Shown here piece after piece: positions 22,818-60,501 of a stretch of DNA of 64,000 bases. The stretch comes from Rhodobacter xanthinilyticus (GTDB lineage: Bacteria; Pseudomonadota; Alphaproteobacteria; Rhodobacterales; Rhodobacteraceae), in NCBI RefSeq assembly GCF_001856665.1, contig NZ_CP017781.1, positions 186,001-250,000 on the forward strand. The letters run 5' to 3'. The position numbers were made by a program, and so were the translations under genes. The notes under the pieces are model-generated. The model was not told the DNA's origin and made no database searches. It saw only the letters and a list, made by a program, of their open reading frames with translations. How positions within the stretch are numbered: the stretch's first letter is position 1; every line of letters begins with the position of its first letter.

Positions 22818-23971
22818 CCGAGGATTGGCGAAACGGCGGGTTCGGGCTCTACCTGCATTGGCCGTTTTGCGCCTCGAAATGCCCCTACTGCGATTTCAAC
22901 AGCCATGTGGCCGCGGAAATCGATCAATCCCGCTGGAATAGAGCCTATTTGAGCGAGATCGAGCGCGCCGGACGCGAGACCGGGGGCCGGGTTCTCAACT
23001 CGGTCTTCTTCGGCGGCGGCACGCCCTCTCTGATGGAGCCGGAGCTCGTCGCGAGCATTCTCGAGAAGATCCGCGCGACCTGGCCGCTCGCGAATGACAT
23101 CGAGATCACCCTCGAGGCGAACCCCACAAGTATCGAATCCGGCCGGTTCAGAGCCTATTCCGAGGCCGGGGTGAACCGGGTTTCGATGGGGATGCAGGCG
23201 CTCAATGACGAGGATCTGCGCCGCCTCGGCCGGATGCATACCGCCGCCGAGGGGCGCGCGGCCTTCGATATCGCGCGCGCGCATTTCAACCGGGTGAGCT
23301 TCGATCTGATCTATGCCCGGCAAGATCAAACGCCCGAGGCCTGGGCGACCGAACTGCGCGAGGCGGCGGCGATGGCGGTCGATCACTTCTCGCTCTATCA
23401 GCTCACCATCGAGGACGGCACCGCCTTTGGTGCGCGCCATGCGGCGGGCAAGCTGCGCGGCCTGCCCGATGACGACAAGGCCGCCGATCTCTACGAGATG
23501 ACGCAGGAGATTTGCGAGGCGAATGGGCTGCCGGCCTATGAGGTTTCGAATCACGCACGCGAGGGGGCGGAAAGCCTTCACAACCTGATCTACTGGCGCT
23601 ATGGCGATTATGTCGGCATCGGCCCCGGGGCGCATGGGCGGCTGACGCTGAACGGCACGCGCCACGCGACCGATACGCCGCGCGCGCCCGGGGCCTGGCT
23701 CGCGGCGGTGGAGAAAAACGGTTCGGGCGAGGCCAGCCGCGAGGCCCTTCCGCGCGAAGAACAGGTCACCGAATTCCTGCTTTTCAATCTGCGCCTGCGC
23801 GAGGGGCTCGATATCGCCCGGTATCAGGCGCTGAGCGGCGCGGATTTTGACCCGGAGACGCTCAACAACCTCGAAAATCTCGGGCTGATTACGCTGGAAC
23901 AGGGTCGAATTTGCCCCACCCGCGCAGGAAGGGCCGTGCTGAACGGCGTGATCCGCGAGCTGATGCCTTAA
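22814..23971 (+). CDS. hemW: Radical SAM haem chaperone HemW
   Basis: The 385-residue protein has the radical-SAM cluster motif CASKCPYC (C19, C23, C26) and GGGTPSLM for SAM binding, then HemW-specific regions (RVSMGMQALNDEDL, YEVSNHAREG, GIGPGAHGRL). HemW family proteins bind haem and deliver it to apoproteins; they were long misannotated as oxygen-independent coproporphyrinogen oxidase (HemN), from which this differs by its N-terminus. ATG 22814 overlaps the RidA-like stop. Its stop shares the palindrome TTAA with the convergent parB stop. Confidence 0.94.
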   Translation: MTEDWRNGGFGLYLHWPFCASKCPYCDFNSHVAAEIDQSRWNRAYLSEIERAGRETGGRVLNSVFFGGGTPSLMEPELVASILEKIRATWPLANDIEITLEANPTSIESGRFRAYSEAGVNRVSMGMQALNDEDLRRLGRMHTAAEGRAAFDIARAHFNRVSFDLIYARQDQTPEAWATELREAAAMAVDHFSLYQLTIEDGTAFGARHAAGKLRGLPDDDKAADLYEMTQEICEANGLPAYEVSNHAREGAESLHNLIYWRYGDYVGIGPGAHGRLTLNGTRHATDTPRAPGAWLAAVEKNGSGEASREALPREEQVTEFLLFNLRLREGLDIARYQALSGADFDPETLNNLENLGLITLEQGRICPTRAGRAVLNGVIRELMP

Positions 23972-24858
23972 CGCAGCCCGCTGATCGCCTGACAGAGCAG
24001 ATCGAGATCATCGAGCGAGCCATAGCGCACCGTCAGCGTGCCACCATTTTCGCCGGAATGATCGATCGTGACCTTCATCCCGATCGACGCGGAGAGATCC
24101 GCCTCGAGCGCGCGGGTATCGGCGTCTTTCTCGGCCTTCGGCCGCGGCGCAGCGGTGCGCGGCTTCTCCTGCGCCTGCTTGCTCAGCCGCTCGACCTCGC
24201 GCACGGAAAGCCCCTTTTGCACGGTTTCGCGCGCCAATTTCACCGGGTCGGGCGCGGTGATCATCGCCCGCGCATGGCCCGCCGAAAGACGCCCCTCGCG
24301 CAGCAGATCCTGAACCTCCGCCGGAAGCTGCAAGAGACGCAGCAGGTTCGCGATATGGCTGCGGCTCTTAGACATCGCATCGGCGACCTTTTCCTGGGTA
24401 TGGCCGAACCGCTCCATCAACTGCCGATAGGCCTGCGCCTCCTCCAGCGCATTCAGATCCGCGCGCTGGATGTTCTCGATGATCGCGACCTCGAGCACCT
24501 CGACATCATCGAATTCGCGCACGATCACCGGCAGCTCATGCAGCCGCGCGAGCTGCGAGGCGCGCCAGCGCCGCTCCCCCGCGACAATCTCGTAATGGCC
24601 CGGTTTTTTCGGATGCGCGCGCACGATCAGCGGCTGAATCACGCCCTTTTCGCGGATCGAGGCGGCCAGCTCCTCGAGCGCCTCGGGCTGAAATTCACGC
24701 CGCGGCTGATCGGGGTTCGGCTCGATCTTCTCGATCGCGATCATCTGCTCGGCGCGGCGCGGCCCGGCCTCCGGCTCGGACGGCGCGATGTTGATATCCG
24801 CCATCAGCGCCGACAACCCCCGCCCAAGCCCGCGCCGCTCAACCTTTTTCTCGCTCAT
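23968..24858 (-). CDS. parB: Chromosome partitioning protein ParB
   Basis: ParB (296 residues) is the CTP-dependent clamp that loads at parS and organises the origin region. It starts with the characteristic RRGLGRGLSALMAD, has the CTP-binding GERRWRAS box, the helix-turn-helix (TQEKVADAMSKSRSHIANLL) and a C-terminal dimerisation domain ending in LLCQAISGLR. AGGGGG precedes ATG 24858. It is the last gene of the rho-side block, three bases after parA, and the two parS sites in the same block are its targets. Confidence 0.97.
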   Translation of the reverse strand: MSEKKVERRGLGRGLSALMADINIAPSEPEAGPRRAEQMIAIEKIEPNPDQPRREFQPEALEELAASIREKGVIQPLIVRAHPKKPGHYEIVAGERRWRASQLARLHELPVIVREFDDVEVLEVAIIENIQRADLNALEEAQAYRQLMERFGHTQEKVADAMSKSRSHIANLLRLLQLPAEVQDLLREGRLSAGHARAMITAPDPVKLARETVQKGLSVREVERLSKQAQEKPRTAAPRPKAEKDADTRALEADLSASIGMKVTIDHSGENGGTLTVRYGSLDDLDLLCQAISGLR

Positions 24859-24861
24859 CGC

Positions 24862-25674
24862 TTACCCCCTCGCCTCGGCGCCATGGCGCGCCATCAGCTC
24901 CCGCGCCAGCGCCCGATAGGCCTCCGACCCGCGCGAGCTGCTGTCATAATTGAGCACCGGAAGCGCATAGGACGGCGCTTCCGAAATCCGCACATTGCGC
25001 GGAATCATCGTTCGGAACACGAGCTCGCCCAGCGTTCCGCGCGCATCCGCCTCAACCTGTTGTGAGAGGTTGTTGCGCACATCATACATCGTGAGGACAA
25101 CCCCCTCGATACGCAGGTTCGGGTTTCCGCTCTGCCGCACCTCCCGGATCGTCAGCATCAGCTGCGACAAGCCTTCGAGCGCGTAAAATTCCGCCTGAAG
25201 CGGCACCAGAACCGAATGGGCCGCGACCATCGCGTTCACCGTCAGCAGGCTGAGCGACGGCGGGCAATCGATCAGCACATAATCAAGCGCGTAGCCGTCG
25301 ATATCGGGCTGGCGCAGCGCATCATGCAGCAGAAAGCTGCGCTTTTCCTTCGAGACAAGCTCCATATCCGCCGAAGAGAGATCGGTCGTCGCCGGGCAGA
25401 TCCAGAGCCCCGCGAGCGTGCTCGGCCGAATCACCTTGGCCAGCGGCGCTTCGTCGAGAAGCAGGTCATAGGTGGTATATTCGCGGTCATCGGCGTCAAC
25501 ACCGAGGCCCGTCGAGGCGTTACCCTGCGGATCGAGATCGACCAGGAGCACGCGCCGCCCCTGCTCGACAAGCGCCGCCGCGAGGTTGATCGCAGTCGTG
25601 GTTTTGCCCACGCCCCCCTTCTGGTTGGCGATGGCGATGATTTTCGGCCCGGGCAGACGCGTGAGATCAGACAC
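24862..25674 (-). CDS. parA: Chromosome partitioning ATPase ParA
   Basis: ParA (270 residues) is the Walker-type ATPase that drives ParB-parS segregation. The deviant Walker A is KGGVGKTT (from residue 19), Walker A' is [13 protein letters not shown] and Walker B is [10 protein letters not shown]. The start appears to be GTG 25674, with GGAG six bases upstream, lying inside the 3' end of rsmG (8-bp overlap). No separate promoter is evident, so expression is probably linked to rsmG. Confidence 0.97.
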
Positions 25675-26296
25675 GCCGAACTCCTGTGATTTCGAGAATT
25701 GCGGCCTCCGAATCTGTCACGCTCGGATGGGCCTTGCAGTCAAAGGACCAGATTTTCTGCGCCGCGGAAAGCTCTTCTTTCCACTGCGCGCCCTTTGGAA
25801 AATAAGCGGTGCCGCCGGGCGCCAGATGCAACTCGCAAAAGCCCAGAAGCGCCTCGAGCGAGGCGAGCGCGCGGGCGCTGAGATACTCCGCCGCAAGCGC
25901 CGGCGCCGCCTCGATTCGCTTCGCGATAACCTGCACCGATAGGCCGAGCTCGCGCGCGACCGTCATCAGGAAGGCCGATTTACGATGATCGCTTTCAACA
26001 AGGGTCAGCTTGAGATCGGGCGCAAATTCCTTCGCGAGAACGGCAAGAACAAGGCCGGGAAAGCCTCCGCCGCTGCCCAAGTCCGCCCAGAGCCCGGATT
26101 TTGGGCGTGCGATTGCGAAAATCTGCGCGGAATCGAGGAAATGCCGATCCCAAACCTGCGCCAAAGTCGGCGCGGAAACCAGATTGATCGCCGGATTCCA
26201 CTTTTTGAGAAGCGCCTCATACTGCTCCAGACGCGCAATTGTTTCACGTGAAACATCGAGGCCCGGGAGGCGAAGGTCGTGAGCCATCTCGCTCAT
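25667..26296 (-). CDS. rsmG: 16S rRNA m7G527 methyltransferase RsmG
   Basis: RsmG (GidB) methylates N7 of G527 in 16S rRNA. The 209-residue protein holds the SAM motif [29 protein letters not shown] and [14 protein letters not shown] 26296 overlaps the mnmG stop; MAHDL at 26287 is an alternative. Near the N-terminus the residues DVSRET are encoded by a perfect parS sequence, the position where many bacteria keep a parS site. It overlaps parA downstream. Confidence 0.96.
26240..26255. promoter_or_regulatory. parS: parS site inside rsmG
   Basis: TGTTTCACGTGAAACA, a perfect 16-bp palindrome, matches the universal chromosomal parS consensus exactly. It encodes part of DVSRET in RsmG. It lies 1.4 kb from the parB start and 5.1 kb from the candidate origin. 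Confidence 0.97.
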
Positions 26297-28155
26297 GCCG
26301 TCTGCTGCCGCTGACGTTGGCGCAATTTCGCAAGGATCAGCGTCAACGCCGCCGGCGTCACGCTATCCACCCGCGCGGCCTGCCCGAGCGTCAGCGGCCG
26401 TGCGCGGCTCAGCTTCAGCTTCAGCTCATTCGAAAGCCCCGACAGCGCGGAATAATCGAAATCCGCCGGAATTTCCCAGCTCTCGTCGCGCTTCATCGCC
26501 GCAACATCGCGCTCCTGCCGCTCAACATAATTCGCGTAAAGCGCGTCCTTCGCGAGCTGCCCGGCGATCTCGGGCGAGAGCGCGCCAAGCTCGGGGAAGA
26601 TCGCGGTGAGATCGTCGAGCTCGATATCCGGGAAAGACAGGAGCGAAAACACGCTCCGCCGCGCGCCGTCCTGGTTCAGCTTCAGCCCATGGCCGGCGGC
26701 CTCTTTCGGCGACAAGGTCAGCGCATTCATCAGGCCCCGGCCAGCCTCCAGCGCCTCCATCTTCTCGCCAAACACCCGCGCGCGCGCCTCGCCCACACAA
26801 CCCAGCTCAACACCAAACCCGGTCAGCCGCTGATCGGCGTTATCGGCGCGCAGCAGGAGCCGGAACTCCGCCCGCGAGGTGAACATCCGATAAGGCTCCG
26901 TCACCCCCCGCGTCGTCAGATCGTCGATCATGACGCCGATATAGCTGTTCGTACGGCTAAACCCCACAAGATCTTGCCCCAGCGCCAGCCGCGCCGCGTT
27001 CAACCCGGCCACCAGCCCCTGCGCCCCCGCCTCTTCATAGCCGGTCGTGCCGTTGATCTGCCCGGCAAGGAACAGACCCTCGATCGCGCGCAATTGCAGG
27101 TGCTGCGTCAGCGACCGCGGGTCGACGTAATCATATTCGATCGCATAGCCCGGCTGCAGGATGCGCACCTCCTCCAGCCCGAACATCGAGCGCACATAAG
27201 CCTCCTGCACATCGGCCGGAAGCGAGGTCGAAATCCCATTCGGATAGACCGTATCGTCGTCGAGCCCCTCGGGCTCCAGAAACACCTGATGCGAGGTCTT
27301 GTCGGCAAAGCGCACGATCTTGTCCTCGATCGACGGGCAATAGCGCGGGCCAACCCCCTCGATATGCCCGCCATACATCGCCGAGCGGCTCAGATTCTCG
27401 CGGATGATCTCATGCGTGCGCTCATTCGTGTGGGTGATCCCGCAGGCGATCTGCCGCGCGAAAGGCTTGGCGTTAAGGAAGGAAAACACCTCCGGCGCGT
27501 CATCGCCCGGCTGCATCTCGAGCGCATCCCAGCGGATCGTCTTGCCGTCGAGCCGCGGCGGCGTGCCGGTTTTCAGCCGCCCGAGTTGCACCCCCAGATC
27601 GCGCAAATTCGCCGAAAGCGCGTTCGACGGGCTATCGCCCATCCGCCCGCCCGGCCGCTTCTGATCGCCGATATGGATCAGCCCGCCGAGGAACGTCCCC
27701 GTCGTCAAAATCACCGCCCGCGTCGCGATCTCGGACCCGTCCGCGAGCCGCACCCCACTCACCCGCGCGCCGCCCAGAAGCTCCGCAACCTCCCCCTCGA
27801 TCACCTCAAGGTTCGGCTGCGCCGCGGTCATCGCCTGGATCGCCTGGCGGTAAAGCTTGCGGTCGGCCTGCGCGCGCGGCCCCTGCACCGCCGGCCCCTT
27901 GCGCCGGTTGAGCAGCCGGAACTGGATCCCGGCCATATCGGCGGCCCGACCCATCACGCCGTCGAGCGCATCGATCTCGCGCACGAGATGCCCCTTGCCG
28001 AGCCCCCCGATCGCCGGGTTGCACGACATAACGCCCAGCCCATCGGCCCGCAGCGTCACAAGCGCGGTCCGCGCCCCCATCCGCGCCGCGGCATGGGCCG
28101 CCTCGGTGCCGGCATGACCGCCGCCGACGACGATGACGTCAAAATGTTTCACGTG
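26293..28155 (-). CDS. mnmG: tRNA uridine-5-carboxymethylaminomethyl modification enzyme MnmG
   Basis: MnmG (GidA) acts with MnmE to modify U34 of certain tRNAs. The FAD-binding GGGHAG motif is near residue 10, with the MnmG signatures [22 protein letters not shown] and [14 protein letters not shown] place the start at GTG 28155 (620 residues), because AAGGAG lies eight bases upstream of it; the earlier GTG 28161 abuts that Shine-Dalgarno sequence. The chosen start codon is inside a parS site. The ribosome-binding site overlaps the mnmE stop codon. Confidence 0.95.
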
Positions 28156-28160
28156 AAACA
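28145..28160. promoter_or_regulatory. parS: parS site over the mnmG start codon
   Basis: A second perfect copy of the 16-bp parS palindrome TGTTTCACGTGAAACA. It spans the mnmG translation initiation region and includes the GTG start codon (28155-28153), 1.9 kb from the first copy. ParB bound or spreading here could affect transcription through mnmG-rsmG-parAB. Confidence 0.97.
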
Positions 28161-29463: not shown

Positions 29464-30735
29464 TCAGCCGTTCATCGAGTCGAAGAATTCGCCGTTGGTC
29501 TTCGTCTGCTTGAGCTTCGAGATCAGGAATTCGATCGCATCGGTCGTGCCCATCGGGTTGAGGATGCGGCGCAGCAGATAGGTCTTTTGCAGATCCTTCT
29601 GATCGGTGAGCAGGTCTTCCTTCCGCGTCCCCGATTTGAGAATATCCATCGCCGGGAACACGCGCTTGTCGGCGACCTTGCGGTCGAGCACGATCTCGCT
29701 GTTGCCGGTGCCCTTGAATTCCTCGAAAATCACCTCGTCCATCCGCGAGCCGGTATCGATCAGCGCGGTCGCGATGATGGTCAGCGAGCCGCCCTCTTCG
29801 ATGTTCCGCGCCGCGCCGAAGAACCGCTTCGGCCGTTGCAGCGCGTTCGCATCCACACCGCCGGTCAGCACCTTGCCCGAGCTCGGCACCACGGTGTTGT
29901 AAGCCCGCCCGAGACGCGTGATCGAATCGAGCAAGATCACCACGTCGCGCTTGTGCTCAACGAGCCGCTTGGCCTTCTCGATCACCATTTCCGCGACCGC
30001 AACGTGCCGCGTCGCCGGCTCGTCGAAGGTCGAGGAAATCACCTCGCCCTTCACCGAGCGCTGCATGTCAGTGACCTCTTCCGGGCGCTCGTCGATCAGC
30101 AGAACGATCAGATAGCATTCCGGGTGATTGACCTCGATCGAATGTGCGATGTTTTGCAAGAGCACCGTCTTACCGGTGCGCGGCGGCGCCACGATCAAGC
30201 TCCGCTGGCCCTTGCCGATCGGCGCCACGAGGTCGATGATCCGCGCCGAACGGTCCTTGATCGTCGGATCCTCGATCTCCATCTTCAGCCGCTCATCGGG
30301 GTAAAGCGGCGTCAGGTTGTCGAAGCTGACCTTGTGGCGCGCGCGCTCCGGGTCCTCGAAGTTGATCTTCTCGACCCCAGTCAGCGCGAAATAGCGCTCA
30401 TTTTCCCCCGGCGCGCGGATGATCCCCTCGACCGTATCGCCGGTGCGCAGGCTGTATTGGCGGATCATCTCGGGCGAGACATAGATGTCATCGGGGCCCG
30501 GCAGATAGTTCGCCTCGGGCGAGCGCAGGAAGCCGAACCCGTCTTGCAGAACCTCGAGCACGCCATCGCCGCCGATCACGATATCGTCCTCGGCGCTTTC
30601 CTTCAGGATCGAGAACATCATCTCGCCCTTGCGCATCGTCGAGGCGTTTTCGATCTCCCATTCCTCAGCCAGCGCGAGGAGTTCCTTGGGGCTCTTCGCC
30701 TTGAGGTCGGCGAGATTCAGACGTTCCGTGCTCAT
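29464..30735 (-). CDS. rho: Transcription termination factor Rho
   Basis: Rho (423 residues) is the hexameric RNA helicase that ends transcription. It has the N-terminal [14 protein letters not shown] domain, the RNA-binding cold-shock-like fold ([15 protein letters not shown]), the P-loop VAPPRTGKT, and the Q/R-loop region. The ATG at 30735 is preferred over TTG 30741. A 102-base leader separates it from a good promoter; rho leaders commonly mediate autoregulation. It heads the rho-mnmE-mnmG-rsmG-parA-parB block. Confidence 0.97.
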
Positions 30736-30836
30736 GGGCAAACCCCCTGAAGGCGCCGTTACCCCCGAGGGCCGGCGCGAAAATTCAACATGTCTTCCGA
30801 AGAACCGATCGGCCGGACGGCCGGGGCTTGGCCGAG

Positions 30837-30865
30837 GATTTACGCGCGAAGCGGTTTCGAGTCAA
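30837..30865 (-). promoter_or_regulatory. Candidate promoter for rho
   Basis: On the minus strand TTGACT (30865-30860), a 17-base spacer and TAAATC (30842-30837) lie in the 137-bp gap between hemJ and rho. The predicted leader of about 95 bases contains GC-rich inverted repeats around 30810-30832. Confidence 0.55.
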
Positions 30866-30872
30866 TGAATCC

Positions 30873-31337
30873 TCAGAATTTCAGGATCACCGAGAGCACG
30901 ATGACGATCATGAACAGCGTCGGCACCTCGTTCATCATCCGGAACTGCCGCCCCGTCAGGGTGTTCACCCCCTCGGCCAGCCGCAGCCGCGCGCCCCCGC
31001 ACCAGAAATGAAACCAGGTCATGCCCAGGATCGAGGCCGCCTTCGTCCAGGGCCAGATCATATCCCATTGCACCACCCCGGGCGTCAGCACCAACAGCAC
31101 CCCGAAGAGCCAACTCGAGATCATCGCCGGCTGCATGATCGCCTTGTAGAGGAGCCGCTCCTGATGGCGAAACAGCATCTCCATCTCGCTCTCGCGCACC
31201 ACGCCGCGCTTTTGCAGCCCCTCGACGTGATAGACGAAGAGCCGCGGCAGATAGAACAGCCCCGCCATCCAGGCGAGCACCGACATCACATGCAGGCTTT
31301 TCGTCCAGAGATAGAAATCCGCGAGAAAGTCGAACAT
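30873..31337 (-). CDS. hemJ: Protoporphyrinogen oxidase HemJ
   Basis: HemJ (154 residues) is the membrane enzyme oxidising protoporphyrinogen IX to protoporphyrin IX in most alphaproteobacteria. It has four or more hydrophobic segments, a conserved His in WTKSLHVMSVLAWMAG, RLFVYH, and a late RxxNE-type stretch (FRMMNEVPT). ATG 31337 with GGAGG upstream was chosen; the open frame continues upstream only across the origin-like gap. It faces away from maf across that gap. Confidence 0.93.
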   Translation of the reverse strand: MFDFLADFYLWTKSLHVMSVLAWMAGLFYLPRLFVYHVEGLQKRGVVRESEMEMLFRHQERLLYKAIMQPAMISSWLFGVLLVLTPGVVQWDMIWPWTKAASILGMTWFHFWCGGARLRLAEGVNTLTGRQFRMMNEVPTLFMIVIVLSVILKF

Positions 31338-31736
31338 GGGCGCCTCCGGGTTCAGCCGCTTCTTCTTAATAAAATTCTTTAAAGAAAGAAAAGATGATGA
31401 TGATTGTAGGGCCTGTGGGTCATGTGGATTACCGGCTTCTCCCGCCTCTGTCCCCAGCCGGGAAAACTCTGCGCCCGCCTCTCCCCGTCTTGGGATATGT
31501 TCCGAAAAATCGCGCGATTTCAGCGCGTTGCGCGCCTGCCAATTTTCCGCCGCCCTGTGGATGTTCGCGAAATGACCCGCCCCCGTGCGGCGAAAGCCCA
31601 CAGCCCGCCCGGGCCCCCGCCCACAGCGGGAAAAGATTAAGGTTTCCTTGACAAAACCGCCCCGGATTGGGGAGGAAACAGATATCGCAGACCCATCCCC
31701 AGACTTTCCCCTGCGCTTCTCCCGCGAGTTATCCCC
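31338..31736. other. oriC: Candidate chromosomal replication origin (oriC)
   Basis: This 399-bp region between divergent hemJ and maf has no gene. Next to hemJ lies an AT-rich block (about 31361-31407, TTAATAAAATTC then an A/G run). DnaA-box-like words with one or two mismatches to TTATNCACA are TGTGGATTA (31423), TGTGGATGT (31556) and TTATCCCCA (31729, touching the maf ATG). A CtrA-like TTAA-N7-TTGA is at 31637. In Caulobacter the origin lies at the equivalent place, with rho-mnmE-mnmG-rsmG-parAB on one side and maf-aroE-coaE-dnaQ on the other; here hemE is absent from the interval. Two parS sites are within 5.5 kb. Not proven by sequence alone. Confidence 0.65.
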
Positions 31737-32336
31737 ATGAGCCTCCCCCTCCTCCTCGCCTCGCAATCGCAAATCCGCGCCACGCTGTTGCGCAACGCGG
31801 GCTTCGAGGTGACCACCCGCCCCGCCCGCATCGACGAGGGGATGATCCGCGCCGCGCTCGAGGCCGAGGGCGCCCGCCCGCGCGATCTTGCCGATGCGCT
31901 GGCCGAGATGAAGGCCGCCAAGGTCTCCGCCGCCAACCCCGGCGCGCTGACGCTCGGCGCCGATCAGGTGCTCGAGCTCAAGGGCCGCGTCTTCGCCAAA
32001 CCCGAAACGCCGGAGGACGCCGCCGAACAGCTGCGCGCGCTCTCGGGCCAGACCCATCGCCTGCTCTCCGCCCTCGTCGTCTTGCGCGATGGCAAACCGC
32101 TCTGGCGCCATGTCGCCGAGGTCCGCCTCAAGATGCACGAGCTCTCCGAGCCCTTCATCGCCGACTATATCGCCCGCAACTGGGAGAGCATCCGCCACGC
32201 GGTGGGCTGCTACAAACTCGAGGAAGAGGGCGTGCGGCTTTTCTCCGCCGTCGAAGGCGATTACTTTGCGGTTCTGGGCCTGCCGCTCATCGAATTCCTG
32301 AACTGGCTTCGCGCCCGAGGAGATCTGACCACATGA
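31737..32336 (+). CDS. Maf-family nucleoside triphosphate pyrophosphatase
   Basis: The 199-residue protein opens [14 protein letters not shown] (the Maf phosphate-binding SxSxxR pattern) and has LGADQVL and [13 protein letters not shown] in the middle. Maf proteins hydrolyse non-canonical or certain canonical nucleotides and are linked to division control. The start is ATG 31737, overlapping a DnaA-box-like word. It leads maf-aroE-coaE-dnaQ, all with overlapping stop and start codons. Confidence 0.9.
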
Positions 32337-33172
32337 CCGACCACCCCCGGATCCCGCTCGCCGGCGTCATCGGCTCGCCCGTCGCCCATTCGCGCTCGCC
32401 CGCGCTGCATGGGTTCTGGCTGAAGAAATACGGCATTCGCGGCCATTATATCCCGATGGATATCGCCGAGGGCGATCTCGAGATCGTGCTGCGCGCGCTG
32501 CCGAAGGCGGGGTTTGTCGGCTGCAATGTCACGATCCCGCACAAGGAGGCCGTGCTCGCCTTCGCCGATGTGATCTCGGATCGCGCGGCGCTGATCGGCG
32601 CGGCGAATACGCTGATCTTCCGGGCCGATGGCAAGATCCACGCCGATAACACCGACGGCTATGGCTTCATCGCGAACCTGCGCGAGGCTGCGCCCAACTG
32701 GAAACCCGCCGAGGCCCCCGCCGCGGTGATCGGCGCGGGGGGCGCTGCGCGCGCCATCGTCGCCTCGCTTCTCGAAATGGGCTGCCCGGAGATCCGGCTC
32801 TCCAACCGCACCCGCGCCCGCGCCGAGACGCTGCGCGCCGAGTTCGGCGCCCGCGTCGTCGTCTATGATTGGGTGCAGGCCGGCAACATGCTCGAGGACG
32901 CGCTGACGGTGGTGAACACCTCCTCGCTCGGCATGGCTGGCAAGGCCGAATTCCGCGTGCCGCTCGACGCGCTCAACCCCCGCGCGGTGGTGACCGATGT
33001 CGTCTACACGCCGCTGAAAACCAAGCTCCTTGCCGAGGCCGAGGCGATGGGCTGCACCGTGGTCGACGGGCTCGGCATGCTCCTGCACCAGGCCGTGCCC
33101 GGGTTCGAGCGCTGGTTCGGCCACCGCCCCGAGGTCACCGCCGATCTGCGCGCCGCGGTGCTCGGCGCATGA
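32333..33172 (+). CDS. aroE: Shikimate dehydrogenase
   Basis: AroE (279 residues) reduces 3-dehydroshikimate with NADPH in aromatic amino-acid synthesis. Motifs: [13 protein letters not shown], the catalytic Lys in [18 protein letters not shown], the nucleotide loop IGAGGAARA, and GLGMLLHQA. It overlaps maf by ATGA and coaE by ATGA. Confidence 0.96.
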
Positions 33173-43599: not shown

Positions 43600-45912
43600 A
43601 TGACCGACCGCGTTTATCTCGTTCTTGCCGTCTTCCGGCCGAACCGGGATTTCCTCGCCGCGCAGCTCGCCTCGATCGCCGCGCAAGACCACCGCGATCA
43701 CCGCCTCGTCGCGGTGATCTCCGATCGCGTCTCGGCCGACCTTGTGCGCGCGCTCTGCGCCGAAGTGGGCCTCGCCGACCCGCATATCCATGTCCCCGGC
43801 GAGACGCTCGACGCCGTGCGCGGCTTCGAGGCGGGCCTTGCCGAGGCGCTGTTCCTCGCCCGCAAGGAGGGCGCCGAGGACGCGCTCTTCGCGCTGTGCG
43901 ACCAGGACGACATCTGGCACCCGAACCGCCTCTCGCGCGGGGTGGCCGAGCTGCGCGCCAGCGGCGCCGATCTCGTCCATTCCGATGCGCGCCTCGTCGA
44001 TGGCGCGGGCGCGGTGATCGCCCCCTCGATGTTCGCCTTCGAAAAACGCGCCCGCGCGCCGGGCCTGCGCGGGCTGCTCTACCGCAACAACATCACCGGC
44101 ATGACCGTGCTGATGCGCCGCCGGGTCGTCGAGATCGCCCTGCCCTTCCCGCAGCAAAGCGGCGTGCATTTCTACCATGACCTCTGGCTCGGCCTCGTCG
44201 CCGCGGCGCTGGGCGGGGTGCGGCTGATCCCCGAACCGCTCGTCGATTACCGCCAGCACGGCGCCAACACGATCGGCGCGGTCGACCGCTCCGACGCCGC
44301 CCGCCCGCGCCTTTTCAAACGCTTGCGCGGCCTCAACGGCATGTGGCTGCGCCGCGAGGCGGCGAGCTACGCGCTCGCGCGCTATCTCGCGCAGAGCGTC
44401 GACGGCCGCCTCGCCGAGGTTTCCGCCGCGGGCGAGCTCGCCCATGGCGAGGCGCATCTGGCGCCCCTGCGCCCCTATCTGGCGCGCCGCCGCGGCGGGC
44501 TGAGCTTCCTGCGCGACGCGATCTCGCTCGCCGCGCGCGGCAAATTCGGCCTCGCCCGGATCGCGCTGGGCTTCGGCACGGTGCATGTCGGCCGCCTCGT
44601 CTGGGCGCTGCGCATCAGCCTGACGCGCGGCATGACCGAGGCGCTCGAGGCCTTTGACGAACGGCTCTACTCACTCTCGCCGGGCGTCGCGCCCCGCCAC
44701 CCCTCGCTCGAGGGCGGGCCCTCCTCGAAGCCGGTGAAATTCGAGACCCTGACCGACCTGCGCAAACGCCCGCGCTGGACGCCCGAGTTCACCGCCCCCG
44801 CGCCGAGCTTCACCGTCCTCGTGCCGACCCTGAACCCGACCGAGATCTTCGCGGGCATCCTCACCGCGATCGACATCGGCGTGGGGCTGGCCGAGCGCGG
44901 CTATCGCGTCACCTTCATCGCGACCGATCTGCCGATCTCCTCGCAAGGCGCCTCGCGCAGCTTCGTTCTGCGCCGCCTCAGCCCCGCCGCGGGCCTCGAG
45001 GTCGCCGACCGCATCGCGCTCCATTGCGGGGTGCAGAGCGAAACGATCCCCGCGCACCCGGGCGATCTCTTCCTCGCCACCGCCTGGTGGACCGCCCATG
45101 TCGCGCAGGAGCTGATCGCCCGCCACGGCTTCACCGCGCGCCGCTTCCACTACCTGATCCAGGATTACGAGCCCAATTTCTACGCCTGGGGCCCGGAATA
45201 TGCCGATGCGGTGGCGAGCTATGCGCTGCCCTTCGAGCCGATCTACAACACCTCGCTCCTGCGCGATTTCATGGCCGAAAAGGGCTATCGCCTCGGCACG
45301 CAGGCGCCGCTGTGCTTCCACCCCGCGATCGAGATCGCCCGCTACGCGACCGGCGCCCGCCCGCCGCGCCGCGGTCCGCGCCGGCTCGCGCTTTACGGCC
45401 GCCCCGAGGTGCCGCGCAACATGTATGCGATGGCGATCGAGGTGCTCGCGCGTTTCATCGAGGCCGAAAATCTCGGCCCCGAGGACATCGAGCTGATCTC
45501 CGTCGGGCTGCGCCACGCGCCGGTGAGCCTGCCCAACGGGCTGACGCTCGCGAGCCACGGCAAGCTGCCCTGGGAGGAATATCCGGGTTTCCTGCGGGGC
45601 CTCGATCTCGGCCTCTCGCTGATGTATTCGCCCCACCCGAGCCACCCGCCGATCGAGATGGCGGCCTCGGGCGTGCGCGTCGTGACCAACAGCTTCGGCC
45701 CGAAAGACCTCTCCACGCTCAGCCCCGCGATCGTCTCGGCCACGCCCGACGCCGATGAGCTGACCGCCGCGCTGCGCCGCGCCTGGGCGATGGCCCCGGT
45801 CGAGGAGGCCGAGCGCGCGATCGACCTCAAGGCGCTTGGCCTGCCGCCCGATGAGATGATCGACCTCCTCGCCGACCGCCTCGCGGCCGACCTGCCCCGA
45901 CAGAATGGATAA
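43600..45912 (+). CDS. Two-domain glycosyltransferase (GT2 plus GT4/WsaF-like)
   Basis: The 770-residue protein appears to be two glycosyltransferases in one chain. Residues 1-250 form a GT2 domain with LAVFRPNRDFLAAQLASI and the nucleotide-sugar/metal motif DQDD (101-104). Residues about 400-770 resemble the WsaF rhamnosyltransferase group of GT4, with FHYLIQDYEPNFYAWGPEYA and the late PHPSHPPIEMAASGVRVVTN. It likely builds the capsule polysaccharide in the cytoplasm, given kdsA upstream and Kps export genes downstream. Sugar donors and linkages are unknown. The end overlaps the sulfotransferase-like gene if that starts at 45905. Confidence 0.85.
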   Translation: MTDRVYLVLAVFRPNRDFLAAQLASIAAQDHRDHRLVAVISDRVSADLVRALCAEVGLADPHIHVPGETLDAVRGFEAGLAEALFLARKEGAEDALFALCDQDDIWHPNRLSRGVAELRASGADLVHSDARLVDGAGAVIAPSMFAFEKRARAPGLRGLLYRNNITGMTVLMRRRVVEIALPFPQQSGVHFYHDLWLGLVAAALGGVRLIPEPLVDYRQHGANTIGAVDRSDAARPRLFKRLRGLNGMWLRREAASYALARYLAQSVDGRLAEVSAAGELAHGEAHLAPLRPYLARRRGGLSFLRDAISLAARGKFGLARIALGFGTVHVGRLVWALRISLTRGMTEALEAFDERLYSLSPGVAPRHPSLEGGPSSKPVKFETLTDLRKRPRWTPEFTAPAPSFTVLVPTLNPTEIFAGILTAIDIGVGLAERGYRVTFIATDLPISSQGASRSFVLRRLSPAAGLEVADRIALHCGVQSETIPAHPGDLFLATAWWTAHVAQELIARHGFTARRFHYLIQDYEPNFYAWGPEYADAVASYALPFEPIYNTSLLRDFMAEKGYRLGTQAPLCFHPAIEIARYATGARPPRRGPRRLALYGRPEVPRNMYAMAIEVLARFIEAENLGPEDIELISVGLRHAPVSLPNGLTLASHGKLPWEEYPGFLRGLDLGLSLMYSPHPSHPPIEMAASGVRVVTNSFGPKDLSTLSPAIVSATPDADELTAALRRAWAMAPVEEAERAIDLKALGLPPDEMIDLLADRLAADLPRQNG

Positions 45913-46738
45913 GACGATGACGAAACGGATCCTGCTCCACGTTGGCTCGCCCAAATGCGGCTCGACCTACCTGCAACAGGTGATGGCCCATAACGGCGAG
46001 AGCCTGCGCGCCGCCGGGGTGAGCTACCCCAAACCCGCGGGCACCCACCCGGGCAACGCCGCCGCCCTCGCCGAGCTCGACGCCGCGACCGTGCTCGGCT
46101 GGTTCACCCCGGGGATCCACACCGTCGTGCTCAGCCACGAGGATCTCTTCTCGATGCCGAAAAAGGGCGATGCGCTGCACGCGATCGCCGCCAAGGCCGG
46201 GATCGAGGTGCAGGTGATCATGTTCCTGCGCCCGTTCAGCGAATTCATGTTCGGCGATTACTCGCAGTTCATGAAACAGCATTTCGAGACCTATCTGAAA
46301 ACGCGCGAGCCCTATAACGGCATGACCTTCCGCGATTTCACCATCCGCCGCGCCTCGACGATGAAACCCGCGCTCTATGCCCGCAACTGGGGCGCGCGCT
46401 TCCCCGCCCGGAAGATCATCCTCGCCAGCCACCGCGAGATCCGCCCGGTGATCGAGGGGCTGATCGGGCCGCAGGCGTTGGCGAGCTGGGAGGTGCCGAG
46501 CGCGCTGACCAACCCGTCGCTGCGGATGGAGGATTGCGACCGGATCGCCGAGGCGATGCGCAACCCGAAGATCTCGGATGGCGAGATCCGCGACATGCTG
46601 CGCGCGGCCTTCCACAAGACCGCCGAGCGCGACGCCGGCAAGAGCCCCGAGCGCATCGCCTTCGCCGAGGAGCAATTCGCCCCGCAAAACGAGGTTCTGC
46701 TCAGCGAATTCGGCTTCGACAACCGCCGCAGGGGCTGA
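45905..46738 (+). CDS. Sulfotransferase-like protein in capsule locus (I)
   Basis: The 277-residue protein begins with a P-loop-like GSPKCGSTYLQ at about residues 14-24, matching the 5'-phosphosulfate-binding loop of PAPS sulfotransferases, and later has MFLRPFSEFMFGDYSQF, where R and S fit the 3'-phosphate-binding motif. No signal peptide or membrane segment is seen, so it would act in the cytoplasm on a sugar precursor or growing chain. ATG 45905 overlaps the glycosyltransferase; ATG 45917 is an alternative. A non-sulfating family member is possible. Confidence 0.75.
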   Translation: MDKTMTKRILLHVGSPKCGSTYLQQVMAHNGESLRAAGVSYPKPAGTHPGNAAALAELDAATVLGWFTPGIHTVVLSHEDLFSMPKKGDALHAIAAKAGIEVQVIMFLRPFSEFMFGDYSQFMKQHFETYLKTREPYNGMTFRDFTIRRASTMKPALYARNWGARFPARKIILASHREIRPVIEGLIGPQALASWEVPSALTNPSLRMEDCDRIAEAMRNPKISDGEIRDMLRAAFHKTAERDAGKSPERIAFAEEQFAPQNEVLLSEFGFDNRRRG

Positions 46739-47413
46739 TCACTCGTCGCCCTTGTCGTCGCCGCCCATCAGCCGCTCATGATGGGCGATGGCGTCCTCCA
46801 CATCTTCATAGAAATGGAAGACGCCGTTCTCGAGCACGCCCGCGTGGTGGCACAGCCGTCGCACCTGGCCCATCGTATGGGTGACCATCACCGCCGCGCT
46901 TTGCGAGATCCGCTGCTGAAACAGCGCCTCGGATTTGCGCTTGAACGAGGCATCGCCCACCGCGGTGACCTCGTCGACGAGATAGGTGTCGAAATGGATC
47001 CCCATCGACACCCCGAAGGCGAGGCGCGATTTCATCCCCGAGGAATAGCTGCGCACCGGCAGGTTGAAATGCTGCCCGAGCTCGGCGAAATCGGCGACGA
47101 AATCGACCAGCTCATCGGTATCGACGCCGTAGACCCGCGCGATGAAGCGCACGTTTTGCAGCCCGGTGAGATCCTGGTGGAAACTGCCCGCAAAGCCCAC
47201 CGGCCAGGAGACCGTGCCATGGCGCACGACCTCGCCGCTATCGGGCTCCATCGCGCCGGAGATCATCCGCAGAAGCGTCGATTTCCCCGCCCCGTTGCGC
47301 CCCAGAACCGCCACCGCGCGCCGCGCCGGGAAGATCGCGTTGACATTTTGCGCCACGATCTTGCGCCGGCCGTTCGTCACATACGTCTTGCAGACGTTGC
47401 GCAGCTCGATCAT
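46739..47413 (-). CDS. Capsule polysaccharide ABC exporter ATPase (KpsT-like)
   Basis: The 224-residue ATPase has Walker A GRNGAGKST, the signature YSSGMKSRL (the SSGMKSRLAF form typical of polysaccharide exporters) and Walker B YLVDEVTAVGD. Length equals that of KpsT/CtrD. With the KpsM-like permease it would export the lipid-linked capsule. I chose ATG 47413 (MIELRNVCKTY); ATG 47434 is possible. It follows the kpsE-like gene on the minus strand, and its stop abuts the sulfotransferase-like stop. Confidence 0.92.
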   Translation of the reverse strand: MIELRNVCKTYVTNGRRKIVAQNVNAIFPARRAVAVLGRNGAGKSTLLRMISGAMEPDSGEVVRHGTVSWPVGFAGSFHQDLTGLQNVRFIARVYGVDTDELVDFVADFAELGQHFNLPVRSYSSGMKSRLAFGVSMGIHFDTYLVDEVTAVGDASFKRKSEALFQQRISQSAAVMVTHTMGQVRRLCHHAGVLENGVFHFYEDVEDAIAHHERLMGGDDKGDE

Positions 47414-47438
47414 CGGCGTCTCGCCCGCGATCATCGGA

Positions 47439-48626
47439 TCAACGCCGGTCGCGAAGCGAATAATAGATCATCGCCATGATCGACCAGGCGACGAACAAGA
47501 GCCCCGCAAGCGCCGAGAGGATCACGAAGCGGCGCGGATATTCCGAGGTTTCCGCCCGCGTCGGCGGGATATGGATCGCGAGATACCGCGACTTGCGCTG
47601 TGCCTCGGCCACCGCCGCATCATAGGTCGCAAGCGCGGTCAGATAGCGCTTCTCGGCAAAGGCCTGATCGACGGTGAGCGATTCATATTCGTTGATCAGA
47701 TTGGCGAGATTGTCCGGGTTTTCCTGCTCGGCGCGGCCGAATTCGCTGCGCTCATCGGCGATGCGACCGCGGATGACATCGATGCGCTGCTGCAACTCGC
47801 CGCGGCGCGGGTCGTCCTTGGCGAGCATGTCGAGCTCGATCATCGCGCTGGCGAGGCGTTCTTGCAGGTTGTTGAGGATCCCCATCCGGCCCTGCACATT
47901 CGCCTGCGGGTCGACGATCTGGCTGCGCACGCGGAACTGGGTGATCGCCGAGCGCGCCTCCTTGAGCGAGGCGACGGCCTGGTCGAGATCCTCGCGGGCG
48001 TAGCGCGTCGCATCCTCGCGCGCGATCGCGGAGAGCTGGTTGATCATCTTGCTGCTCTCGTCGGCGATCGCGGTGGCGATCTGCTGCGCATCCTCGGGGT
48101 CGAAGGCGAGCACCCGGATCTCGATCAGCCCGGCCGAGCTGTCGTAGAAGACATCGACCATCCGCTTCCAGAAGGCGAGCATCTGCTCGATCCGCGCATC
48201 CGAGCCGATCGAGAACACCGGGTCGCCCGGGTTGGCAAAGACCGTCATCAGGTCGATCCGCGCATTGATCGCGCGCACCATCGCCTCGCTGCGGATGTAT
48301 TCGTAAAGGATATCGGTATCCGACGAGCTCGAGCCTGAGAGCTGCGCGATCCCGCCGAGCATCTCGACGGCGGAGCCTGCCTCCTCGCGGCGCACCGAAA
48401 AGCCGACGCGGCTGGCGAACTGGTCATTGGCGATCGCGTAGAGATAGAGCCCCGCGAGCAGCACCGGCGCCACCACCACCGCCGCAAAAGACGCCGCGAG
48501 GAGCTTGTGGCGCCGTTGCAGCCGCGCGAATTGGGCCGGCGGGCGCACCTTGAGCTTGAGCTTCTTTGCCGCGGCGGCGGCCAGACGAGTGGGGTGCGAC
48601 GCGGGCGCCTCGGCGGGATCAGTCAC
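47439..48626 (-). CDS. Capsule export inner-membrane protein (KpsE/CtrB-like)
   Basis: This 395-residue protein has one membrane segment at about residues 45-65, a long periplasmic region with coiled coil (about 190-310) and a second membrane segment near 370-388 just before the C-terminus. That is the polysaccharide co-polymerase layout of KpsE, CtrB and BexC, which bridge the ABC exporter to the outer-membrane channel. The start is GTG 48626. It is divergent from the KpsM-like gene, with 84 bp between. Confidence 0.9.
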   Translation of the reverse strand: MTDPAEAPASHPTRLAAAAAKKLKLKVRPPAQFARLQRRHKLLAASFAAVVVAPVLLAGLYLYAIANDQFASRVGFSVRREEAGSAVEMLGGIAQLSGSSSSDTDILYEYIRSEAMVRAINARIDLMTVFANPGDPVFSIGSDARIEQMLAFWKRMVDVFYDSSAGLIEIRVLAFDPEDAQQIATAIADESSKMINQLSAIAREDATRYAREDLDQAVASLKEARSAITQFRVRSQIVDPQANVQGRMGILNNLQERLASAMIELDMLAKDDPRRGELQQRIDVIRGRIADERSEFGRAEQENPDNLANLINEYESLTVDQAFAEKRYLTALATYDAAVAEAQRKSRYLAIHIPPTRAETSEYPRRFVILSALAGLLFVAWSIMAMIYYSLRDRR

Positions 48627-48710
48627 GGAAAACCTGTTCGTATCGTTGGCGAAAGCGGCTCACTCTGCTGATTTGCAGATCTCGGCAACTGTGTTACGTC
48701 ACTTTTCACC

Positions 48711-49526
48711 ATGACTCAATCGGCACTTCCCTCGCCGGGCCTGCGCGCCCCGCAACGCCCCCGCAGCCTCGCCACCGCGCGCACCATCGCGGCGCTGATG
48801 CTGCGCGAGATGAGCACGACCTATGGCCGCTCGATGCTGGGCTATCTGTGGGCCGTGCTCGAGCCGGTGGCGGGCATCATGCTGATGACCTTCATCTTTT
48901 CCTTCGCCTTCCGGGCGCCGCCGATCGGCACGAACTTCCCGCTGTTCTACGCCTCGGGCATCCTGCCGTTCATGGCCTATATGGATATCGGCCAGAAGAT
49001 CTCGGTCTCGCTCAGGTTCTCGAAATCGCTGATGTTCTACCCCGGCGTGACCTTCATCGACGCGATCGTGGCGCGGTTCCTGATCAACGCGCTGACCTTC
49101 GTCATGGTGGCGGTGATCGTCTACGGGCTGATCTTCCTGGTCTTCCGCCTCAACGCGATCATCGACCTGCCGGCGATCTTTCTGGCCTTCGCCATGGCCT
49201 TCGCGCTCGGCCTCGGGATCGGCACGCTCAATTGCTTCCTGCTCTCGAGCTACCCTTTGTGGGAACGCGCCTGGGCGGTGATCACGCGGCCGCTCTTCAT
49301 CGTGTCGTGCATCTTCTACATCTTCGATTCCATCCCCGAGCCCTATCGCGGCTGGCTGTGGTGGAACCCGCTCGTCCATATCATCGGCCAGGCGCGCAAG
49401 GGCTTTTACGCCACCTATGACGGCGCCTATGTCTCGCCGCTCTATGTGTTCACCGTGTCGGCCGTGACCTTCGCCGCCGGGCTGTTGCTGCTGCGCCGGT
49501 ATCACCGCGACATCGTGAACTTCTGA
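48711..49526 (+). CDS. Capsule polysaccharide ABC exporter permease (KpsM-like)
   Basis: The 271-residue protein is an ABC-2 type permease with about six hydrophobic segments, including LREMSTTYGRSMLGYLWAV near the N-terminus and the closing LVHIIGQARKGFY typical of KpsM/CtrC. It pairs with the KpsT-like ATPase, although the two genes are on opposite strands and cannot share one mRNA. It is followed by the second sulfotransferase-like gene on the same strand. Confidence 0.92.
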   Translation: MTQSALPSPGLRAPQRPRSLATARTIAALMLREMSTTYGRSMLGYLWAVLEPVAGIMLMTFIFSFAFRAPPIGTNFPLFYASGILPFMAYMDIGQKISVSLRFSKSLMFYPGVTFIDAIVARFLINALTFVMVAVIVYGLIFLVFRLNAIIDLPAIFLAFAMAFALGLGIGTLNCFLLSSYPLWERAWAVITRPLFIVSCIFYIFDSIPEPYRGWLWWNPLVHIIGQARKGFYATYDGAYVSPLYVFTVSAVTFAAGLLLLRRYHRDIVNF

Positions 49527-49587
49527 GCGCAGAGCGGTTGCCCCGGCCCCGCCGGTTTGCTAGCCCGAGATCAAAGAGGAGGGCTCC

Positions 49588-50355
49588 ATGGGCTGGCGCG
49601 GTTATATCGACGATCCCCACAAGACGGTGTTTTTCTGGTCGCAAAAGGCCGCCTGCACGACGCTGTTCAACCTGCTCGCCGATAACATGCCCGAGCGCCC
49701 GGCCGCGAAAAGCCATTTCCACACCACCAGCGCGCCCTATCAGAAATGCCTCGAGGCGATCGAGAAGCGCGGCTACCGCGCGGTGATCCTCGCGCGCCAC
49801 CCGGTCACCCGCTCGATCAGCGCCTATTTCAACAAGTTCCTCGTCTACCGCGACAAACGCCTGATGACCCGCGCCGATCTCGAGCCCTTCGCGCAGGTGC
49901 TCCATGACAAGTTCTGCGAGATCACCGGTCAGACGACCGAGGATAACATCATCACCTATGAGCAGTTCCTCGATACCGTCGCCGCGATGCGCGCCGATCT
50001 CGCCGAGAAGCCGCATATCCCGATCAACGGCCATTGGGAAACCCAGGTGCCGCCGCTCCTGCGCGAGCGCGGCTTTCGCTATGACCGGATCGTGCATGTC
50101 GAGAACCTCGATGCCGAGCTCGCCGAGCTTTGCGCCGAGCTCGGCCTGACCCATGAGCCGCGCACGCTCAACCGCACCAAGATCGCCGCCGAGCGCCATC
50201 AGGGCTATCTCGGCGACCGCCCCGCGCGCGAGGTCTCGGGGCTGAACTTCGGCTATGAGAATTTCATCGCGCCGGCGACGCTTGCGCGGCTCGAGCGGCT
50301 CTATGGCGTCGATTTCGAGATGTTGGGCTACCCGCCCGGGGCCCCGCAGCGCTGA
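49588..50355 (+). CDS. Sulfotransferase-like protein in capsule locus (II)
   Basis: The 255-residue protein has a 5'-phosphosulfate loop pattern (FFWSQKAACTTLFNLL, residues 15-30) and a 3'-phosphate-binding pattern in ILARHPVTRSISAYFNKF (about 68-85), as in the Golgi-type/bacterial Sulfotransfer_2 group. AGAGGAGGG precedes ATG 49588. It is distinct in sequence from the other sulfotransferase-like protein 3 kb upstream. Its location between export genes implies capsule or surface sugar sulfation. Confidence 0.8.
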   Translation: MGWRGYIDDPHKTVFFWSQKAACTTLFNLLADNMPERPAAKSHFHTTSAPYQKCLEAIEKRGYRAVILARHPVTRSISAYFNKFLVYRDKRLMTRADLEPFAQVLHDKFCEITGQTTEDNIITYEQFLDTVAAMRADLAEKPHIPINGHWETQVPPLLRERGFRYDRIVHVENLDAELAELCAELGLTHEPRTLNRTKIAAERHQGYLGDRPAREVSGLNFGYENFIAPATLARLERLYGVDFEMLGYPPGAPQR

Positions 50356-50376
50356 GGCTGCGGGCGCCGGAAGGGA

Positions 50377-51489
50377 TCATTCGGAGATCAAGGTGGCGGT
50401 GCGCGCCGTGCCGAGAACCGAGCCGATCACCGAGAGCACATTGCGCGTCATGGTGAGCGAGGCCTCGGTCGCAACGACCGTATCCTCGGGGTTGATCTGG
50501 AACTTGCGCGCCGCAAAGAGCCCGTCCGCCGAGGTCAGATCGAAGGCGAAGATCATCTGCGCGCGCTCGGGCCCGCCGGGTTTGACCGCCGAGGCCGGAT
50601 ATTCGCGCAGAACGATCAGCCCCTTCGGATCGGCGCGGGTATCGGCAAGCCCGCCGATCTCGGCCAGCGCCTCGAGCGCGGTGAGCCGGGCCTTGGAGAA
50701 ATAGACGATCTCCTCGCTGCCGGTGGCGCCGATCGCGGTGAAGTAACGCTCATCCGCCGCCACCACGATCTTGTCATTGCCGCGCACGGGGATGTTTCTC
50801 GAGGCATCCGAGAGCAGCTCGCGCGCCGGGATCCGATAGGTCTTGCCCGCGCGGATCAGCCGCACCTCGGGGTTGCGCAGATTGGCCGGGATACCGCCGG
50901 CCTGCGCGATCACGCTGAGCACCGAGGTGTTGCGATCAGCGAGCGGGAAGCTGCCCGGCTTGGCCACGCCCGAGACCACGTCGACGGTGTTGAGCCGGCC
51001 CTGGGTCACGTTGAGCTGGACCTGCGCGGTGGGCGAGATCGGCTCGAGCGCCTTCTGGATCTTGGCCCGCGCCTGCGTCGGCGTCAGCCCGCGCACGAAA
51101 ACGCTGTCGATATAGGGCACGAAGACATCGCCGGATTCGGTGACGACCAGGCCTTTCATGGTCGAGCTGCGGCTGGCGTTTTGCGTCAGCAGCGAGTTTT
51201 CCTGGCTGTCCCAGACCATCAGATCGAGCGTGTCGCCCGTCTCGATCACGCCGGTATCGGCGCCCCGATGCGGGCCGGGCCAGTTCGCCCCGCCCGAGGG
51301 GCCGGTGCGCGGAAAGGCCTGGATCTGCGCGATATTGTCGCGACCGACGCGCATCACCGCAAAATCTTGATCCGGCGCGGTTTCCTCGCGGACGATTTCA
51401 CGCGTCAGCGCCGCCCCCCGAGGGGTCGTGCAGGACGCAGCAACAAGGATCGTCAGCGTGAAGCCGACGGTGGTAAGCAAGCGGCTCAA
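50377..51489 (-). CDS. Polysaccharide export outer-membrane protein (KpsD/Wza-like)
   Basis: The 370-residue protein has a signal sequence ending in AASC, a plausible lipoprotein cleavage site (Cys about residue 20), then a polysaccharide export (PES) domain (IETGDTLDLMVWD) and SLBB-type repeats (VDVVSGVAKPGSFPL). It would form the outer-membrane exit for the capsule. The start appears to be TTG 51489, with GGGGGG seven bases upstream; a later start would remove the signal peptide. It converges with the second sulfotransferase-like gene. Confidence 0.9.
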   Translation of the reverse strand: MSRLLTTVGFTLTILVAASCTTPRGAALTREIVREETAPDQDFAVMRVGRDNIAQIQAFPRTGPSGGANWPGPHRGADTGVIETGDTLDLMVWDSQENSLLTQNASRSSTMKGLVVTESGDVFVPYIDSVFVRGLTPTQARAKIQKALEPISPTAQVQLNVTQGRLNTVDVVSGVAKPGSFPLADRNTSVLSVIAQAGGIPANLRNPEVRLIRAGKTYRIPARELLSDASRNIPVRGNDKIVVAADERYFTAIGATGSEEIVYFSKARLTALEALAEIGGLADTRADPKGLIVLREYPASAVKPGGPERAQMIFAFDLTSADGLFAARKFQINPEDTVVATEASLTMTRNVLSVIGSVLGTARTATLISE

Positions 51490-51584
51490 TACGATCCCCC
51501 CAGACCATGAGACAGCTCCGTTCTAATCATGACCGCCCGAATTGCCAGCCGAAAATTCTGCATCGGCGAGATCTTCCACAGAAA

Positions 51585-51606
51585 AGGCGGGCCCGAAGGC
51601 CCGCCT
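51585..51606 (-). terminator. Intrinsic terminator after the RTX protease gene
   Basis: On the minus strand the stem AGGCGGGCC / GGCCCGCCT closes a TTCG loop and runs into TTTTC. It starts 24 bases after the protease stop codon and is a convincing Rho-independent terminator. Confidence 0.8.
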
Positions 51607-51629
51607 CTGTGGATAAGTCGGCGCCGGGA

Positions 51630-54644: not shown

Positions 54645-54722
54645 AATCATCTTCCCTCGGGTAACGCACCCGTGAGCCTAGCCGATAAGATTGCTCATCT
54701 CAAAGGCGAAAAACCCTACCTT

Positions 54723-57191: not shown

Positions 57192-57330
57192 GGTCCTTCA
57201 CCCCAAGTGTGCCCCCACACTGGTGATGGATTTACCGGTTTGGCGCGGCTATCGCGGGTGCGAGAATGTGGCCTCAGGGTGGCCTTTAAGAACAGTTCGA
57301 GCCAAATGCGCCCGATCTGTCAGGCCCCGG

Positions 57331-57720: not shown

Positions 57721-57777
57721 GGCGGGCTCCTTTGCGGCTCGGGCGAGGGTGCCGCAAAGCCGGGGCCGCAGCAAGCC

Positions 57778-58245: not shown

Positions 58246-58248
58246 GCC

Positions 58249-58611: not shown

Positions 58612-58836
58612 GCGCGCCACCATTGCGCCCGCATCAGAGGCCGCGAGAGAGAGATGAGACAGGACATAGTCCTCCAAGGGGTCACGCGCCGTCAGGCCCC
58701 GGCGCTGGGCGTAACTTCAAAATAGCATCGCACCCCCGGAATCTCAACTCCGCGGGCGTTTGCGGCCCCGGTCTGCCATCGGCGGGCGAATGTCAAGGGC
58801 GTGCGGTAAGGTCAGCCCCTCTTCCCTTAGATTTTC

Positions 58837-58865: not shown

Positions 58866-58872
58866 GCGCGCC

Positions 58873-60489: not shown

Positions 60490-60501
60490 GGAGCACCGAC
60501 C

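Follow-up and report, generated by a model that had tools for sequence, protein, structure and literature searches.

A candidate chromosomal origin of replication in the hemJ–maf intergenic gap of Rhodobacter xanthinilyticus

The intergenic gap between hemJ and maf is very probably the chromosomal origin of replication (oriC) of Rhodobacter xanthinilyticus, since in many relatives this gap recurs at nearly equal length and with DnaA-binding words of a similar type; its replication activity is a prediction from sequence. We analysed a window of 64,000 nucleotides, by which we mean the whole stretch of contig C1 from position 186001 to 250000 (C1 measures 3,462,926 bp in an assembly of four contigs). 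A preliminary description of this window had put forward the gap as a candidate oriC, and the proposal is strengthened by the conserved length, the recurring boxes, the adjacent parS sites and a skew minimum at or near the gap in three relatives. The gap looks like an ordinary origin and not one of a new kind, and we infer that it is active in this strain.

Results

Setting of the gap

To the left of the gap, on the minus strand, Pfam matches identify hemJ, rho, mnmE, mnmG, rsmG, parA and parB, and to the right, on the plus strand, maf, aroE, coaE, dnaQ, nadA, a FAD-binding protein and nadC; the FAD-binding protein is taken as nadB by its position between nadA and nadC. We take this neighbourhood, with rho, mnmE, mnmG, rsmG and parAB on one side and maf, aroE, coaE and dnaQ on the other, to be that of Caulobacter too. 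The boundary genes of the Caulobacter origin, hemE and COG1806, are not at the gap, since hemE lies at C1:2797999 and no match to PF03618 (ppsR/COG1806) was found in the genome; that hemE had gone from the interval was noted from the start, and its distant position agrees. The only two places in the genome that match parS with at most one mismatch lie 3.2 and 5.1 kb from the gap. No Rfam family matched at gathering scores within 30700–32400.

Table 1. Features in and around the hemJ–maf gap, in positions of the window.
Feature	Position	Strand	Remarks
parB and parA	23968–25674	-	ParB_N/HTH_ParB and AAA_31/CbiA
parS TGTTTCACGTGAAACA, perfect	26240–26255		one of two genome places at ≤1 mismatch
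parS TGTTTCACGTGAAACA, perfect	28145–28160		one of two genome places at ≤1 mismatch
hemJ	30873–31337	-	UPF0093
Candidate oriC (hemJ–maf intergenic gap)	31338–31736		399 bp; conserved gap length, conserved blocks, DnaA-box enrichment
AT-rich patch, candidate duplex-unwinding element	31359–31407		GC 0.213 over 31361–31407; A-rich in the alignment of relatives
Triplet repeat GATGATGATGAT, candidate DnaA-trio-like element	31393–31404	+	between AT-rich patch and first DnaA boxes; -344 from maf
Weak DnaA box TGACCCACA, two mismatches	31414–31422	-	head-to-tail with the TAATCCACA box; CTATCCACA or TTATCCACA around there (-322 to -325) in some relatives
DnaA box TAATCCACA, one mismatch	31423–31431	-	word recurs at -289 to -333 in many relatives
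Weak central DnaA box ACATCCACA, two mismatches	31556–31564	-	several Thioclava have exact TTATCCACA at -180/-181
TTGACA, possible -35 element of a maf promoter	31648–31653	+	in 12 of 16 rows of the genus alignment, by eye; promoter role putative
DnaA box TTATCCCCA, one mismatch	31729–31737	+	final A shared with the maf ATG
maf	31737–32336	+	Maf family

AT-rich patch and DnaA boxes

The AT-rich patch that had been described at 31361–31407 is real. Its GC content over these 47 bp is 0.213, and no other place in the 64 kb window is so poor in GC: only five of 63,954 segments of that length are as low, all of them at this patch. It lies beside the DnaA boxes, as an unwinding region of an oriC would, and unwinding itself is predicted.

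The gap contains no exact DnaA box, two with one mismatch and four with up to two. By comparison, 1000 dinucleotide shuffles of the gap contained on average 0.03 boxes at up to one mismatch (p 0.002) and 0.56 at up to two (p 0.001), so the boxes go beyond chance, as do those in the gaps of relatives. The box-like words seen earlier, one of them touching the maf start, therefore hold up, at four with up to two mismatches. Their degeneracy had been called unusual, a view that we cannot share, as 10 of 15 gaps of the same genus (L144–L158) also have no exact box.

We counted exact boxes over the whole genome, and boxes with mismatches over about 670 kb of it, or about one fifth of the chromosome. 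When up to two mismatches are allowed, the gap has the top box score in these 670 kb (6, the next being 5), and no cluster equal to it was found in the stretches so scanned. At up to one mismatch, another place in the 64 kb window, near 51.6 kb and with an exact box, reaches an equal score. Exact TTATCCACA occurs 14 times in this genome compared to 10 times for the reversed control, so single exact boxes carry little meaning.

CtrA and IHF sites were sought in the window gap and are unsupported there at published criteria. There is no CtrA site of the form TTAA-N7-TTAA with at most one A mismatch, and the near-match CtrA box of the preliminary description is at chance level, with 2 sites versus 0.83 expected at up to two mismatches (p 0.23). 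Over the 56 gaps described below, 25 CtrA sites fall in 19 gaps, or 0.446 per gap versus 0.124 in shuffled gaps, when both strands are counted and symmetric sites hence counted twice. The IHF site (WATCAN5WTR) is absent from the window gap and present in 17 of the 56 gaps (0.304 per gap versus 0.171 shuffled).

The gap in relatives

Comparing the gap in related genomes had been proposed as a check, and the outcome favours the candidate. We used two sets of relatives, the second partly made up of species of the first, and the relatives counted are not independent of each other. For the first set a Maf scan gave 63 loci, 55 with a hemJ match and eight without (L061, L064, L065, L070, L072, L079, L080 and L081; the contig of L079 begins at maf). 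These eight were left out of the gap counts, and seven of them entered the gap alignment but not its conservation line. The gap measures 385–438 bp in the 55 relatives, with gene starts extrapolated from alignments. Together with the window this makes 56 gaps, which contain a mean of 0.89 exact DnaA boxes and 3.30 near-exact ones (up to one mismatch) each, compared to 0.10 near-exact boxes in shuffles. The enrichment reaches p≤0.01 in 52 of the 56, and 43 have three or more near-exact boxes. In many gaps the boxes recur at the same positions relative to maf, namely -312 to -333, -289 to -307, -181 to -191 and -8, the last on the maf start codon, where TT.TCC.CATG is found in 35 of 56.

In 53 of the 56 loci, most of them 20 kb spans and a few short, no other place is as rich in boxes as the gap; the window, L074 and L076 show ties. 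A similar picture emerges over 160–200 kb in six relatives (G001, G003, G005, G011, G022 and G032), in all of which the gap is the top box place. The six scores are 6, 6, 6, 5, 4 and, in G022, 2, and the best score outside the gap is at most 2 (1 in G022).

The second set comprised 40 relatives, 38 of which had a match; the 29 best were taken as loci in addition to the genome's own copy. Among these 29 loci, 19 have a gap of 386–422 bp, L166 has a hemJ–maf distance of 1229 bp, and nine lack a hemJ match. One of the latter, L159 from the same genus (genome G015), has five near-exact boxes within the 450 bp before maf; L164 has one there and L165 none, both again with no hemJ match beside maf. 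The pattern is thus missing or altered in three of the 24 same-genus or same-family relatives with the locus (L164, L165 and L166), where the origin may lie elsewhere or the locus may be rearranged. The remaining six of the nine loci without a hemJ match come from outgroup families of the class. Within 450 bp of maf on this side, L172 has one near-exact box and L167–L171 have none, which suggests that the position beside maf is not shared throughout the class.

A triplet repeat beside the boxes

When read 3′ to 5′ away from the box, GATGATGATGAT gives TAG four times and then AAA. We applied a published search rule for DnaA-trios, which asks for a box with up to two mismatches, a spacer of 0–16 bp and at least three NAN trios (PMC8287927). 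The window has such an arrangement, with a run of five NAN trios 9 bp from the box, matched by 0.7% of 300 shuffles. A run of three or more is found in the hemJ-side part of 35 of the 56 gaps, compared to 13.6% of 1120 whole shuffled gaps, and the other 21 have no run of three. None of the five trios in the window run has the 3′-GAT-5′ consensus, and only one of the 56 gaps has two or more that do. For the 50 gaps in which the triplet place could be set, the 20 bases there show an identity of 0.573 at lag 3, above the 0.296–0.333 at lags 2, 4 and 5, which indicates that the triplet element recurs.

GC skew and KOPS-like polarity

GC skew is weak and uneven in this genome, and we rejected it as the sole means of locating the origin. 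Cumulative skew in the window falls on past the gap to a minimum at 60868, about +29 kb from maf. A skew minimum elsewhere had been named in advance as evidence against the candidate; formally there is one inside the window, yet it belongs to a skew of this weak and uneven kind. Of the six relatives, three have their cumulative minimum within 2 kb of maf: at -379 bp in G001 and -518 bp in G011 (Sulfitobacter, 200 kb each), and, over 182 kb, at -1951 bp in G032. The genome of this last relative is complete, and the skew sampled from its two arms is mostly of opposite sign, positive on one and negative on the other. No minimum so close to maf is seen in the present genome or in the other three relatives, where a local minimum lies to the right of maf, at +78.8 kb in G003 and +76.1 kb in G005 (both Thioclava) and at +66.6 kb in G022. 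When relatives are pooled, mean skew changes sign across the gap, being -0.064 over 2 kb on the left side and +0.015 over 2 kb on the right. Of 51 loci with long flanks, the window included, 46 have negative skew to the left and 24 have positive skew to the right; the means of the two sides are -0.050 and -0.005.

Polarity was followed with GGGCAGGG, which is one version of the KOPS motif GGGNAGGG as published (PMC13342612). It occurs 605 times in the genome, compared to 101 for the reversed control, and two arms are visible: 24 reverse and 4 forward sites up to C1:231 kb, then 96 forward and 22 reverse from 248 kb to 1.10 Mb among the matches listed, with polarity reverting near 1.89 Mb, roughly opposite the gap. 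The near turn falls between C1:230138 and 248451 (window 44138–62451), which is +12.4 to +30.7 kb from maf. For the relatives we used GGG[CA]AGGG, whose best switch lies at +7 kb in G001, +7 to +8 kb in G011 and +11.5 kb in both G003 and G005; in G022 the run changes between +10.4 and +14.9 kb, and in G032 forward sites make up 10 of the 11 on the left side of the gap. The turn is therefore displaced 7–31 kb rightward in six of seven genomes (this one and five of the six relatives), so we rejected KOPS-like polarity as a fine locator and used it coarsely only. Pooled over the 10 kb flanks of relatives, GGGCAGGG counts 1 forward and 57 reverse sites on the left, and 21 and 116 on the right.

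An alternative is an origin 12–31 kb further right (window 44–62 kb), with the gap as a relic or another DnaA-bound site. Such an origin would match the polarity switch and the skew minimum, the region has an exact TTATCCACA at C1:237608, and the similar switch offset in relatives speaks for it as well. We nevertheless consider it unlikely. There is no box cluster there, the place near 237.6 kb scoring 4 compared to 6 for the gap (up to two mismatches), and much of 43.6–57.2 kb consists of polysaccharide, sulfotransferase and RTX genes (Pfam), whose own composition may carry the skew. In addition, five relatives share reverse-polarity sites near +3 kb, which so appear to have been inherited with coding sequence rather than to be independent, and the two Sulfitobacter with a like offset have their skew minimum at the gap. 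The polarity offset may reflect both the inheritance of coding sequence and a weakness of selection close to the origin.

Separately, we note in window 51630–57191 two large minus-strand frames of 1006 and 822 aa, the second with 11 matches to RTX calcium-binding repeats, adjoined by polysaccharide export and sulfotransferase genes.

Promoters and the dnaA locus

We regard it as very unlikely that the gap does no more than serve hemJ and maf as a long two-way promoter region, with a DnaA-regulated maf promoter. The two genes are divergent, TTGACA is widely kept in the genus (Table 1) and a DnaA box sits on the maf start codon, all as such a region would have them. However, it would need neither the conserved length of about 400 bp nor the boxes at the hemJ end, the conserved AT-rich patch, the nearby parS sites or the skew minima of relatives. 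Promoter and origin functions can coexist in the gap.

An origin at dnaA, its common place in other phyla, has next to no probability here: the gene lies at C1:349, where the assembly begins, 217 kb from the gap, and the 1.4 kb on its 5′ side (C1:1–400 and the last 1000 bp of C1, the contig ends being assumed joined) contain no DnaA box with up to two mismatches, GGGNAGGG counts 0 forward and 3 reverse sites in both C1:1–20000 and 3400001–3420000, and there is no parS. A 283-aa frame with a weak Bac_DnaA score (33 bits) was also seen at 21 places in this genome (G000), 14 on C1 and 7 on C2; it is presumably an IstB-like insertion-sequence ATPase.

Discussion

With the hemJ–maf gap as the origin, initiation might proceed as follows. 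DnaA would bind the head-to-tail boxes at 31414–31431 and the weaker ones in the middle of the gap and on the maf start codon, and would then oligomerise leftward, past the GC-rich spacer, to reach the triplet repeat. Opening would take place at the AT-rich patch (31359–31407), a site and direction suggested by the layout of the sequence, and the helicase would be loaded there, with two forks departing.

The gap provides a testable anatomy for Rhodobacterales origins: an element of about 400 bp, boxes at recurring positions and a triplet repeat. It also means that the assembly, beginning at dnaA, starts 217 kb off the likely origin, a distance to be allowed for in studies of gene dosage and replichores. 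A literature search at the level of titles and abstract openings, with most subscription journals outside its reach, found no Rhodobacterales origin named by hemJ and maf as flanks. Marker-frequency data have been published for Cereibacter sphaeroides and Paracoccus (PMC13342612).

The origins of 101 Rhodobacteraceae have been predicted with Ori-Finder (Kopejtka et al. 2019, PMC6699656). Origins were chosen there across the family by DnaA boxes, GC disparity, a local GC minimum and nearness to parAB; the part of that report drawn on here gives no shared origin anatomy. Another survey describes parAB as close to the origin in nearly every genome, some members of Rhodobacterales being exceptions (PMC8116508).

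The origin of Caulobacter crescentus, Cori, is described as exceeding 400 bp and as having DnaA boxes and an AT-rich stretch; it is flanked by hemE and COG1806 and contains five CtrA sites and an IHF site. An origin beside hemE is also predicted in Rickettsia (PMC1914354). The hemJ–maf gap likewise has DnaA boxes and an AT-rich stretch. It differs from the account of Cori in that it has no hemE, COG1806 (PF03618), CtrA site or IHF site at published criteria.

There is also a likeness in layout to origins with a basal unwinding system (BUS) and DnaA-trios. The order of the box TAATCCACA, TGACCCACA, a GC-rich spacer, triplets and the AT-rich patch is that described for the basal unwinding system (PMC8287927), and the head-to-tail boxes, the GC-rich spacer and the middle-A triplets, five in a row here, are shared with these origins (PMC8287927, PMC10721633). 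The triplets themselves are different, being 3′-TAG-5′ and not 3′-GAT-5′; in Bacillus the preferred pair in the trios is given as 3′-GA-5′ (PMC10721633). We raise, as a tentative idea with the odds against it, that Rhodobacterales origins use a variant opening triplet in the DnaA-trio position, GAT read 5′ to 3′ (3′-TAG-5′) or a GTT-like form in some genera, and that the DnaA of this order reads another triplet than does the DnaA of Bacillus.
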